Assembly (NCBI GenBank): GCA_017457295.1 | Contig: JAFTHS010000014.1 | Span: 17,264-81,263, forward strand | DNA: 64,000 nucleotides | Origin: Paludibacteraceae bacterium | Lineage (GTDB): Bacteria > Bacteroidota > Bacteroidia > Bacteroidales > Paludibacteraceae | Direction: 5' to 3' | Shown: positions 60,322 through 63,052 of the stretch, piece after piece | How positions within the stretch are numbered: position 1 is the stretch's first letter | How the letters are laid out: the number at the start of each line of letters is the position of its first letter | Translations under genes and position numbers: made by a program | Notes under the pieces: generated by a model | What the model was told of the DNA's origin: nothing | Database searches by the model: none | The model's input: the letters and a program-made list of their open reading frames with translations, nothing else

Positions 60322-60534
60322 CTAATTCTTCTTCGCGTTATACGACTCGATGGTTTTGGTTTGTATAATCACGGCGGTATCGCCTCGGGTGAGTGACTTA
60401 CTCTCGGAGGTGATAGTTCGTATGACATTGCACGAGGTGAGTCCCAGTGCCATGGCGATGGCAGTTGCCACGGCCAATGCCAGGTACTTGATGGCCTTTA
60501 CCAGGCGTTGTTTCTGAATTTCTGTTAGTTTCAT
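60322..60534 (-). CDS. Small membrane/lipoprotein-like protein, resembles 'smalltalk' proteins
   Basis: 70 residues: charged N-terminus (MKLTEIQKQRLVKAIKYLA), a hydrophobic segment LAVATAIAMALGLTSC ending in a lipobox-like Cys, and a polar tail (NVIRTITSESKSLTRGDTAV). The AVATAIAxALGLTSC pattern resembles the Bacteroidetes 'smalltalk' small proteins found near mobile-element genes, though those are usually shorter; the match is from memory. It is 21 bp downstream of the 104-residue orphan gene on the same strand. Confidence 0.55.
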   Translation of the reverse strand: MKLTEIQKQRLVKAIKYLALAVATAIAMALGLTSCNVIRTITSESKSLTRGDTAVIIQTKTIESYNAKKN

Positions 60535-60555
60535 AGATTTTAGTGTTTAGGGGTC

Positions 60556-60870
60556 TTAGTTATTCATTTCCTCCGCGACTTTTGCCCAAACATACTTGCG
60601 CAAGGTGCTGTGCTCGGTTTGGTTCTTGAAGTCGAGTTGGTCTTGTGGTTGCTTGGTTGGATCTTGAAGGCGTGCTGCCACGGCGGAAGCCAACTGTCCC
60701 CAGTAGGTGCGATATTGCTTCTCGTCGTCGCTGACGGGTGTGCTACGTTGTCCGTAGCTGGTGGTGTAGTTCTTGCCTGACTCTTTGCGGTGTGCAAAAC
60801 CGATTTTGTGTTTCTTACTGATACGTCCGTGGACCGCATCCACAGGGAATGCATATTCTACTTGTGCCAT
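60556..60870 (-). CDS. Orphan 104-residue protein, distant paralogue of the gene at 61049
   Basis: Start chosen at ATG 60870 (MAQVEYAFPVDAVHGRISKK); the frame is open to 60990 but that part contains the repeated CCTCCATGCCGTGGGAGGGG element and is unlikely to be coding. Shares with the 61049 product: an M-x-Q start, a short SG/GRI(C)-K segment, a basic GF/FQ-K-x-GK stretch, an L-x-DP motif in the middle and a C-terminal Y-V-[WF]-A-[KQ]. No known domain recognised. Probably part of an accessory element. Confidence 0.6.
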   Translation of the reverse strand: MAQVEYAFPVDAVHGRISKKHKIGFAHRKESGKNYTTSYGQRSTPVSDDEKQYRTYWGQLASAVAARLQDPTKQPQDQLDFKNQTEHSTLRKYVWAKVAEEMNN

Positions 60871-60982
60871 TCGTGTTCGGCAATCTCGCGCATTGACCGA
60901 CGACCATGTCGTCGTTAGGGCGCTCGATGTCTCCACTCTATCCTCGAGCTCACGAAGCTCTCGGATGTTTTCGAGGGGAGAC

Positions 60983-61004
60983 TCCTCCATGCCGTGGGAG
61001 GGGG
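60983..61004. repeat. Short dispersed repeat CCTCCATGCCGTGGGAGGGG, copy 1
   Basis: The 20-mer is near-palindromic (CTCC...GGAG) and recurs at 61698-61718. Immediately downstream is an AATTAAGAATTTTG tandem (61022-61049). Confidence 0.8.
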
Positions 61005-61048
61005 TTAGAGGTTTAAGGAATTAAGAATTTTGAATTAAGAATTTTGAA

Positions 61049-61357
61049 TTAGTTGAGTTTTTTGTACTCTTGTGCGAAGACATATCCATAGAGAGAATAG
61101 TATTTCTTTTGTGCTTTGAACGCAGCTTCGTAAACGGCACGTTGCTCTGGATCAGCCAGTGCAGTTTTGGCATTAGCTTGAGCTGTTTTGAACTTGTTTT
61201 GTACAGCCAGTTGCGCGTCGGTTGGTTCTTTAGTAGAAGGATAGCAGCGTTTGCCAGAGAATACTTTACCATTTTTTTGGAAGAAGTACATGTCGGAGTG
61301 GCCGCAGATTTTGCCACTCATGGACTCAACGAGTCCCATAGGTTTGATTTGTGACAT
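61049..61357 (-). CDS. Orphan 102-residue protein, paralogue of the gene at 60556
   Basis: MSQIKPMGLVESMSGKICGH start, basic aromatic segment (MYFFQKNGKVFSGKRCYP), central helix with ALADPEQRAVYEAAFKAQKK and C-terminal YGYVFAQEYKKLN. The helix-rich C-terminal half with L-x-DP is shared with the neighbouring 104-residue protein. No signal peptide, no known domain. The regulatory-looking hairpin element copy 1 lies upstream on its 5' side. Function unknown. Confidence 0.65.
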   Translation of the reverse strand: MSQIKPMGLVESMSGKICGHSDMYFFQKNGKVFSGKRCYPSTKEPTDAQLAVQNKFKTAQANAKTALADPEQRAVYEAAFKAQKKYYSLYGYVFAQEYKKLN

Positions 61358-61487
61358 AATGTATTCGGCAATGAACAGGAGTATGAATTTAATACAATTG
61401 ATGACAATTCAAAGATTATTTTGTAACAAAAATACGCAGCGCTACGCTTGCTACAAAAATAATTAAAAATCAAGGATTTGTTTTGAA

Positions 61488-61672
61488 GACAATTGTCGTC
61501 AATTTGGTTCTTATCTCGCCATACGGCTCGAACGATCTGGCTCATTCGTCCGTACGTCAATTAGTGTCAATTTCGGGAATATTTTTGAGTGGGGACAGAA
61601 GAATGCATGCTGCATTAATGTCCCAAATCAAAAAATGATTTTGATATATCACATTGGTAGGCAAAACAAAAT
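61488..61672. repeat. GTCAATT-iteron plus hairpin element, copy 1
   Basis: GACAATT 61488 and GTCAATT 61498, then GTCAATT 61556 and 61566 (10-bp spacing within each pair), a 19-bp gap, a hairpin with outer stem GGGACA/TGTCCC (61592-61597/61619-61624) and inner stem AATGCA-TGC-TGCATT (61602-61616), and downstream GGCAAAACAAAA. It occupies most of the 475-bp gap 61358-61832, 5' of the minus-strand gene at 61049; nothing coding is seen in the gap. The second GTCAATT repeat copy of this short dispersed element (CCTCCATGCCGTGGGAGGGG) follows at 61698. Confidence 0.75.
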
Positions 61673-61697
61673 GAGATATTCATACTCGGGTTCGGAA

Positions 61698-61718
61698 TCC
61701 TCCATGCCGTGGGAGGGG
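61698..61718. repeat. Short dispersed repeat CCTCCATGCCGTGGGAGGGG, copy 2
   Basis: Same 20-mer as at 60983-61004, again followed by GTT. Both copies lie 5' or 3' of small orphan genes in the accessory patch. Confidence 0.8.
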
Positions 61719-61832
61719 TTGGTGCGTGAGCGTACAGGGTATAGGTGATAGGTTATAGGCTATACGGATACGCTTACGCAGGGTTAATAAATAAGGTTAA
61801 TTGGTGTAAGGTGTAGAGTGTAAAGGCTAGGG

Positions 61833-62096
61833 TTAATTGATTGTATGGAGTGTACAGGTCCAGCAGTGGTTGAAGGTGAGGGACTGGGCGAGAGTTTGGC
61901 GGATGATGTCGCATGCCTCGTCGGGAAGGAAGAGTTGAGGGTCGAGAGGAATGACCTTGACTGTGAGGGTGGTGCCCTCGGCAGAGTACTCGGGATTGAG
62001 GGTTTCCAAATGAAAGAAGACTGCCTCTTTGGCTTGGAGCATCTCTTCTGCGCTTTGGCAGGGAATGGAGATGAGAACGAAATGTTTTTGGTTCAT
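61833..62096 (-). CDS. Orphan 87-residue protein
   Basis: Start at ATG 62096 (MNQKHFVLISIPCQSAEEML); the frame is open to 62135 without conservation cues. The sequence alternates strand-helix-strand (FVLISIPCQ, AEEMLQAKEAVFFHLETL, TTLTVKVIPLDPQLF), a ferredoxin-like small fold is possible. No signal peptide or known domain. Iteron/hairpin copy 2 is directly upstream. Function unknown. Confidence 0.55.
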   Translation of the reverse strand: MNQKHFVLISIPCQSAEEMLQAKEAVFFHLETLNPEYSAEGTTLTVKVIPLDPQLFLPDEACDIIRQTLAQSLTFNHCWTCTLHTIN

Positions 62097-62183
62097 ATTG
62101 ATAGGATATATAAAATTTAAAAACAACTTAAACAACTTCCGCTCGAATCAACTTCCTCGAGCGGCGAGGGAATTTGTTGTAAA

Positions 62184-62310
62184 GACAATTCAGGTCAATT
62201 GGGTTGTCAATTTATGTCAATTCGAGGATACATTTTGTTGGTTTGGAAGAATGCGCTGGGCGCATTGGCAACCCAAACAAAATATGTAGTCATTAGTGGA
62301 CAAAACAAAA
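62184..62310. repeat. GTCAATT-iteron plus hairpin element, copy 2
   Basis: GACAATT 62184, GTCAATT 62194, 62206 and 62216; 18-bp gap; hairpin with outer stem GTTTGG/CCAAAC (62241-62246/62273-62278) and inner stem AATGCGC-TGG-GCGCATT (62250-62266); downstream GGACAAAACAAAA. Collinear with copy 1 but without the ~46-bp insertion between the iteron pairs. Located in the gap 62097-62515, 5' of the minus-strand gene at 61833. Confidence 0.75.
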
Positions 62311-62404
62311 ATTATAACAATGTTTGTAATTCTTTCAAGTAATTTAACTTTGTCGTGCTGGGTAGTGTCCTCTGTGGACGCATTTCTATAATAATGCTGC
62401 AAAA

Positions 62405-62504
62405 AGTAGCGGCAACAATAAAAAAAGTTGCCGCCGATTTGCGTTTTATGGCTTGTGAAGTGCGATGAATACTAATAAAATTTTTTTTTGCATTTGCCGC
62501 TACT
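62405..62504. repeat. Inverted repeat AGTAGCGGCAA/TTGCCGCTACT enclosing a GC stem
   Basis: Perfect 11-bp arms at 62405-62415 and 62494-62504 enclose CGGCAAC...GTTGCCG (62410-62435) and a nine-T run. It lies just 3' of the minus-strand gene at 62516 and may act as its terminator region. A weak plus-strand promoter-like TTTG-n18-TAACTTTG is at 62323-62352. No gene is seen in 62311-62515. Confidence 0.55.
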
Positions 62505-62515
62505 TCTGCCGCTAG

Positions 62516-63052
62516 TTAGGTATTTGGGTTGAGTAGTTCTGCCATTTGCTCCACCGCAAGCTTTGATTTTGTAGGTATATGCAGACTGTTTAGTCGGGGG
62601 AGTTGACGGCTGTTTTTATCCACAAAGTGGTTATATACACAAGTCCATTTGCCGACTCGTTTTGGAATGGAGATATAGTTTCGCTCTGTCATTACTCGTA
62701 TGAGGTATGCGAGTTGAAGATTGGAACCTGTCCATTTGATTCGAATATTAGATGCTTTGCCTGTAAAAAGAGTGAAGAAGTCATCGGGCTGGGTGTCCGC
62801 AGCAATCCATTGTGCACAGAGAAGATACTGATAGAGCATTGTGATGCGTTGGGGTGCAGTAGCAAGCCAACGATAGGTGAAAGTAGCATTGGTCACACGA
62901 GGTGCAGGGCACTTTGCTGGAGTTTTGCGAGGAGAAGTGAGAATAGGAGTTGGCGCATAGTGCCTACGGAAATTGATAGCAAGCGCATCGTTACTTGTAG
63001 AGAGATAAGAGGCAAGGAGTTTGCCGAGTTGGGCACATGTTGGTGTTGTCAT
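62516..63052 (-). CDS. Hypothetical protein, accessory-element type
   Basis: 178 residues, basic, no signal peptide. The C-terminal half contains IRIKWTGSNLQLAYLIRVMT, a winged-helix-like stretch, and NHFVDKNSRQLPRLNSLHIP; the combination W-x-G-x-N-x-Q-L-x-Y and F-V-D-K-N-x(7)-SL recurs in hypothetical proteins of Bacteroidetes mobile elements (from memory). The N-terminal half has no recognised domain. A DNA-binding or replication-accessory role is possible but unproven. Confidence 0.6.
   Translation of the reverse strand: MTTPTCAQLGKLLASYLSTSNDALAINFRRHYAPTPILTSPRKTPAKCPAPRVTNATFTYRWLATAPQRITMLYQYLLCAQWIAADTQPDDFFTLFTGKASNIRIKWTGSNLQLAYLIRVMTERNYISIPKRVGKWTCVYNHFVDKNSRQLPRLNSLHIPTKSKLAVEQMAELLNPNT

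Follow-up and report, generated by a model that had tools for sequence, protein, structure and literature searches.

What are the two iteron-and-hairpin repeats that stand among small orphan genes in this Paludibacteraceae genome, and does their fold mark them as regulatory RNA, as replication or transfer origins, or as mobile DNA? We compared both copies in the window, by which we mean the whole 64,000-nucleotide stretch analysed here, with relatives in other genomes. The copies lie where a preliminary description of the DNA had placed them, with their parts in the same order, and the two iteron patterns gave no matches when read backwards as a control. Each copy has four GWCAATT heptamers with a hairpin next to them (Table 1). 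The common layout that had been described is right in that both copies consist of four iterons, a hairpin and a tail, but the 10/12/10 heptamer spacing of copy 2 is not that of copy 1, whose iteron pairs are 51 bp apart instead of 5 (46 extra bp); a similar element in L084 has TGGTT alone in place of the 51-bp spacer. To the left of copy 1 (61393-61460) are a degenerate iteron pair and another repeat module, which we call module A. Folded as DNA on either strand, both hairpins were better than 200 of 200 dinucleotide shuffles (z from -3.3 to -4.6), and they have a four-over-two internal loop in common (GAAG/AA and GAAG/GG). The outer stem of copy 1 and both inner stems were described correctly, whereas the GTTTGG/CCAAAC stem assigned to copy 2 is an alternative register; folding favours the register typical of the family, GG-T-TTG/CAA-C-CC, which has a single T.C mismatch and a 4/2 internal loop.

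Table 1. The two repeats and their immediate surroundings, in window coordinates.
Feature	Position	Strand	Basis or remark
Small orphan protein, 102 aa	61049..61357	-	By eye, resembles genes beside other copies
Degenerate iteron pair TACAATT-GAT-GACAATT, probable older-element remnant	61393..61409	+	Read directly
Module A: ACAAAAATACG-(weak palindrome)-CTACAAAAAT	61426..61460	+	Read directly; among 41 distinct A modules
Copy 1 iterons 1-2, GACAATT-GTC-GTCAATT	61488..61504	+	Read directly, motif scan
Copy 1 spacer, 51 bp, begins TGGTT	61505..61555	+	Read directly
Copy 1 iterons 3-4, GTCAATT-AGT-GTCAATT	61556..61572	+	Read directly, motif scan
Copy 1 bulged hairpin: GGGACA/TGTCCC, internal loop GAAG/AA, inner AATGCA/TGCATT	61582..61634	+	Folding, model match
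Copy 1 tail GCAAAACAAAA	After hairpin, to 61672	+	Read directly
Right half of a second, distinct hairpin of this family (CATTGGTAGGCAAAACAAAA) in copy 1 tail	61652..61671	+	Sequence match
Small orphan protein, 87 aa	61833..62096	-	No Pfam/NCBIfam match above curated cut-offs
Copy 2 iterons 1-2, GACAATT-CAG-GTCAATT	62184..62200	+	Read directly, motif scan
Copy 2 iterons 3-4, GTCAATT-TAT-GTCAATT	62206..62222	+	Read directly, motif scan
Copy 2 bulged hairpin: internal loop GAAG/GG, inner stem AATGCGC/GCGCATT	62229..62288	+	Folding, model match
Right half of a second, distinct hairpin of this family (CATTAGTGGACAAAACAAAA) = copy 2 tail	62291..62310	+	Sequence match

The repeats stand in a cluster of small minus-strand genes (60322-63052) encoding proteins of 70, 144, 102, 87 and 178 aa. 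Pfam and NCBIfam searches with seven window proteins gave nothing above the curated cut-offs for the small genes beside the copies; the 70-aa protein has a sub-threshold smalltalk match, and by eye similar-looking small genes accompany elements in L088, L092, L098, L102, L104 and L123. A palindromic repeat, CCTCCATGCCGTGGGAGGGG, occurs at 60980-61003 and 61695-61718, and sequence resembling it lies to the right of copies in other genomes (for example L092, L098 and L035). Directly right of copy 2, at 62404-62505, is an imperfect inverted repeat with 23-bp arms that are 83% complementary. In the window each copy does precede a small orphan gene, but the family as a whole follows no such rule: elsewhere, copies also adjoin the 2-oxoacid:ferredoxin oxidoreductase gene pair (korA-korB), a ribosome-binding-type GTPase gene, tsaE and a sigma-70-type gene (families checked).

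A search for exact four-iteron matches in a collection of species genomes yielded 78 stretches, which contain 90 distinct sites once repeats are removed. Every stretch has Paludibacteraceae or Bacteroidales in its title, and many carry ruminant-gut sample names; viral contigs gave no matches for two exact patterns. With up to 2 mismatches, the four-iteron pattern was found in 2 of 61 genomes (the window's own and others of its genus and order), both from one genus, and a looser pattern gave one control match in each of two of nine genomes, among the matches listed. The window's own genome has the iteron motif on contigs C36, C42, C50 and C64 as well. The hairpin accompanies it on C50 and C64 but is missing from C36, C42 and one of the C64 sites. 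In line with the search proposed in the preliminary description, we made a covariance model of the hairpin from 14 copies, both window copies among them, and it gave strong matches in three genomes of the genus: on the native strand, leaving out weaker opposite-strand echoes, there were 5 hairpins in G000, 15 in G014 and 1 in G025. Three more genomes gave one weak match each (E 0.05-0.09), which we take as chance. Because copies are many and scattered, with the 15 hairpins of G014 spread over 8 contigs, we dropped the replication or transfer origin that had been among the readings first offered.

Of 73 distinct hairpins in the iteron-selected set, 69 have an iteron pair upstream on their own strand, at a distance of no more than 260 bp, as do 9 of the 15 model-found hairpins of G014. 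Nine sites have another architecture (L076, L083, L097, L110, L122, L126, L127, L144 and L146); included as sources in the hairpin search, they yielded none, and five of them (L083, L126, L127, L144 and L146) carry exact iteron pairs in both directions. A related iteron repeat, whose heptamers run in both directions (GTCAATTACCGTCAATT...AATTGACGGTAATTGAC), occurs in these same five loci and in genomes G175-G178; it often adjoins GC-rich hairpins and, with up to 2 mismatches, reaches 22 to 90 sites per genome among the matches listed, with one control match (G175). In L117 and L089, hairpin copies stand in tandem about 170-182 bp apart. The iteron-hairpin family itself is short (under about 600 bp), non-coding and present in many dispersed intergenic copies, as MITEs are.

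Orthologous sites with and without the unit were found, as the preliminary description had suggested looking for. At tsaE, the unit reads RTTAAAGACAATT, iterons, hairpin, ...GG and stands between two copies of ATTATTTT, exact in three occupied genomes (L085, G095 and G084); the second 8-mer is one mismatch off in L087, L112 and G123. In G014, ATTATTTT is single and the unit absent, and in G000 the spacer is shorter and altered. The genus provided 12 tsaE loci, of which 3 were occupied, that of G014 was cleanly empty, that of G000 was altered and 7 were beyond comparison (L100 and L142, identical to G095 and G123, were counted once). Between korA and korB, G014 alone has the unit (iterons, module A, hairpin) and the gap is empty in 10 other relatives, from 11 of 30 returned loci examined. 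Upstream of an EngB-like GTPase gene, the full unit is present in L143 and two iterons in G000, with no unit in G085, G081, G025 or G014. MITEs have a basic architecture of terminal inverted repeats (TIRs) and flanking direct repeats, according to a review (PMC10969869). Because the bare unit has no TIR, its ends at tsaE (RTTAAAG... and ...GG) not being inverted, we call it MITE-like rather than a MITE.

The target duplication of the bare unit is clear at tsaE and barely above chance elsewhere. A blind search for 8-bp duplications covered 47 distinct elements, derived from 101 sites of which 50 passed the hairpin finder. It gave 4 perfect duplications where re-paired controls had 1.2, and 14 that matched at 7/8 positions or more where the controls had 9.9; the 4 include two tsaE orthologues and one tandem duplication. 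Good evidence of target duplication among the 47 elements thus comes only from tsaE and perhaps L094. So slight an excess is expected if most insertions are old, and is no proof of movement. Of the readings in the preliminary description, a MITE-like folded substrate is the one supported by the dispersed copies, the occupied and empty orthologous sites and the 8-bp duplication at one locus.

We looked for an enzyme that could move the unit. Among 20 proteins scanned with Pfam, 12 came from multi-site regions of G123 and G095 (3 regions, among the sites listed) and included no transposase; other ORFs beside copies were inspected by eye. No autonomous relative was found in multi-site regions, and no transposon sharing the ends of the bare unit. 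Some units lie inside a frame with ends GGGAACTATATACnnGTTGACACT and AGTGTCAACnnGTATATAAATCCC, whereas many iteron-hairpin units have no frame. Allowing up to 1 mismatch, 8 of 151 genus genomes carry the frame TIR pattern; G095 has 48 sites, the control gave no match, and the window's own genome has none either. Frames also hold other interiors, the shortest among those listed being 77 bp (G014). In L091, L100, L109 and L129, whole TIR frames or lone frame ends accompany other interiors, several of which contain a GC-rich palindrome and then GTTGTT-type repeats.

The outer-frame TIRs look IS1595-derived, as far as a sequence comparison goes, and we treat this as a lead only. Members of the IS1595 family make 8-bp target duplications. 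Genes of the IS1595 family (PF12762) are present in 10 of 151 genomes, G077, G084 and G123 being three of these, and one copy in G123 (L302) has 36-bp arms, 32 positions matching, flanked by the direct repeat ATTCTACTA. The frame TIR matches that of L302 at 16 of the 24 first positions, as good or better in 5 of 100,000 shuffles, a comparison that rests on this one chosen IS1595 copy; the TTGGCACT motif is present in L302 and L300 and absent from the six other IS1595 loci among the 8 inspected. L302 (G123:C68) is an insertion about half a kilobase from a framed iteron copy. Among the 7 framed copies listed, the two 8-bp flanks were identical in L075 and L105 and not in L091, L096, L133, L221 and L229, a count with no chance control. 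In its TIR and these flanks the frame is like IS1595-family MITEs; unlike them, many units are frameless and the window's genome lacks the frame pattern. As a mover, IS1595 was kept as a lead for the outer frame alone; PF12762 was not found in element-bearing G000 and G014 in the profile search of the 151 genomes.

In module A, of which 41 distinct examples are listed, two ACAAAAATA-type repeats enclose a palindrome that varies. Nested forms occur as well. Further palindromes lie within hairpin tips or module A loops in L086, L105 and L137. Comparable loci in relatives were paired with those of the window by eye, through flanking sequence or an adjacent gene. In L125 and L119 the iterons are followed by an intact TGGGCAAAACAAAA- or TGGACAAAACAAAA-type hairpin, and the second L084 site has iterons, module A and then such an intact hairpin, whereas the first L084 site has the two-hairpin form of copy 1. 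In both window copies and in L077, a new hairpin is followed, after a few bases, by the right half of an older one, which begins at its CATT.

Pairing is maintained across the family. An alignment fitted to the covariance model contained 81 hairpin matches, 77 of them distinct and some of them model-building copies; because it is fitted to the model it favours the structure. In it, 93.5% of 1362 cells were paired against a shuffle mean of 73.4 (0 of 500 shuffles reached 93.5), two-sided changes occurred at 17 of 18 pairs, 264 cells had changed on both sides against a shuffle mean of 72.2, and covariation reached 0.518, compared with 0.174 for shuffles and no more than 0.119 for slid controls. 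An unfitted MAFFT alignment of 60 of the 81 model-found copies, without the model-building rows and folded afresh, agreed: 94.7% of 716 cells were paired (shuffle mean 77.5), 11 of 12 predicted pairs had two-sided changes, 134 cells had changed on both sides (shuffle mean 37.0), and covariation was 0.499 against 0.182 in shuffles and at most 0.165 in slid controls. The number of further pair types was not above shuffles in either alignment (265/500 for the model, 266/500 for MAFFT). The preliminary description had named lack of homologues and loss of pairing as grounds for doubt; there are 90 sites, and the hairpins aligned stay paired. It had also read compensatory changes from the two window copies. 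These are right as changes, but the window copies carry different invading hairpins, so that the two-copy comparison spans two different hairpins.

Selection on structure, which had been concluded from those stems, fits the covariation in both alignments, but correction of quasi-palindromes by template switching within hairpins could contribute to it and is a real alternative to selection on the fold. If paired changes arose largely in this way, the element would be mobile and its fold passive. The 264 two-sided cells against 13 one-sided standard-pair cells in the model alignment speak for such correction, and module A likewise varies yet stays palindromic (161 of 236 arm positions paired, against 46% in re-paired controls). 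Correction would tend to erase loop asymmetry, however, and the asymmetry of the internal loop is exactly 2 nt in 72 of 77 distinct hairpins of the model-fitted alignment. The kept asymmetric loop argues against palindrome correction as the sole cause, and even as the main one we think it rather improbable. The covarying hairpin would also suit a transcribed structured RNA, either a small RNA or a riboregulator family. We consider this very unlikely: an RNA-like wobble signature is absent from the plus strand, where mismatch cells comprise just 17 G.T/T.G, 36 A.C/C.A and 53 other among the 1362; Rfam at gathering scores gave one tRNA and no other family in the whole window; and presence and absence are of the insertion type. 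The A.C excess on the plus strand could equal G.U on the minus strand, but this reading is weak because some A.C cells look like register shifts and the rows, sharing ancestry, are not independent. The regulatory RNA leader first entertained for the window accordingly finds no support in these mismatch counts or in gene orientation.

Gene orientation bears equally on a cis-regulatory role, with the iterons as operator and the hairpin in a regulated leader or promoter region of adjacent small genes. Direct repeats about 10 bp apart are bound by some response regulators. The unit recurs at the same gene across species (sigma-70-type in L079, L087, L113 and L149; tsaE); in the small-gene cluster its iteron end is mostly toward the gene start, by eye; and the minus strand of the window's module A reads TTTG-N19-TATTTTTG, resembling a Bacteroidetes promoter. 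From 81 sites, the nine of other architecture being excluded, 69 had an ORF of at least 90 aa on both sides by a simple ORF caller, and 12 were at edges. The flanking ORFs read '--' at 36 sites, '++' at 26, '-+' at 4 and '+-' at 3. Gaps between co-directional genes therefore predominate (62/69), and the element's orientation relative to genes is free, with or against its neighbours. Relatives also lack the unit at the same genes (korB in all 10 others read; tsaE in G014), and the neighbours have no evident common function, so that we regard a cis-regulatory role as unlikely. Intergenic hairpins with a conserved stem irregularity would also be explained by an element of REP/REPIN type, whose hairpins a Y1 (RAYT/TnpA-REP) transposase mobilises in single-stranded form. 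This reading is highly improbable here, as Y1_Tnp (PF01797) was not found in G000, G014 and G025 (4 of 41 genomes have it; G095 and G123 were outside this set), GTAG is at the 5' side of the hairpin foot in 0 of 73 hairpins (GTAG or CTAC is on the 3' side in 5 of 73), and target duplication, seen at tsaE, is not expected of Y1 chemistry. Finally, hairpins interleaved with small genes might be attC-like recombination sites that join cassettes into arrays. Such interleaving occurs in G014:C17 (L034:1389-3559), where five hairpins lie in about 2.2 kb; nearby genes, some of them of toxin-antitoxin or nuclease type, encode DUF3791 and DUF3990 proteins and a PDDEXK_3 nuclease. The attC R''/R' boxes read RYYYAAC...GTTRRRY, and the hairpin base here is, by eye, TTTTGTT...AACAAAA and not 5'-AAC...GTT-3'; tyrosine recombinases would not be expected to leave an 8-bp target duplication. 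Given the duplication at tsaE and the many copies in ordinary gene neighbourhoods, we set integron-like cassettes aside and give them almost no credence.

Taken together, these data make it likely that the family consists of short, non-coding, non-autonomous mobile elements of MITE/REP-like kind. Counted against this reading are the lack of an autonomous relative and of a TIR on the unit, the weak blind duplication test, the co-directional gap skew and the further pair types at shuffle level. The basic unit has a fixed polarity: on the left, four GWCAATT iterons (10/12/10), usually after a TTAAM-like end, and on the right a hairpin of about 55 nt with a conserved asymmetric internal loop of the 4/2 type; module A sometimes joins it. 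The nearest described relatives in kind are BrickBuilt and the REP hairpins with a required stem bulge. BrickBuilt, a MITE of Porphyromonas gingivalis for which promoter activity is reported, is made up of unspaced 23-nt tandem repeats and bears small TIRs that resemble those of ISPg1 and ISPg9 (PMC4596501). Like it and other P. gingivalis MITEs (PMC4596501), the present elements are short, intergenic, non-coding, multi-copy repeats of narrow host range in Bacteroidales, and like BrickBuilt they have direct repeats between distinct left and right ends; unlike it, they have four heptamers set apart by spacers, a basic unit that lacks TIRs and, at one end, a bulged hairpin that covaries. With REP/REPIN and TnpA-REP (PMC8266576, PMC3116915) they share intergenic hairpins and a conserved stem irregularity, and in Escherichia coli REPs the stem bulge is needed for TnpA-REP activity (PMC8266576). 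They differ in lacking the 5'-side GTAG and, in three genomes checked, a Y1 gene, and in having an 8-bp target duplication (one locus) and an iteron block at fixed polarity.

On this mobile-element reading, a transposase of DDE type with an 8-bp stagger would act in trans, IS1595-like enzymes being the leading candidates. The iterons would be clustered protein-binding sites, and the folded or cruciform hairpin the other recognition element. The simplest history that we infer for the window copies, from their arrangement, is insertion into an older hairpin followed by recombination between iteron blocks: a newer unit may have entered the older hairpin, and iteron-iteron recombination may then have removed the old left part; the iterons and the new hairpin would remain, followed by the right half of the older hairpin. 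We found no published description of the iteron-hairpin repeat in the open-access literature. The family looks new, but small passenger repeats that depend on the enzyme of another element for their movement are a known kind. It is doubtful that it represents a new transposition system, with a four-iteron protein-binding array at one end, a bulged DNA hairpin recognised by shape at the other, and a preference for inserting into hairpins including its own; that preference is based on three loci, the two window copies and L077. What the family does suggest is that uncultured gut Bacteroidales harbour many small, nested, palindromic mobile elements whose fold is kept while the sequence of the stems changes. 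The family is also a warning that covariation between intergenic repeats need not mean RNA. Should the hairpin be recognised as DNA, these copies would be a natural dataset for how a transposase reads structure.
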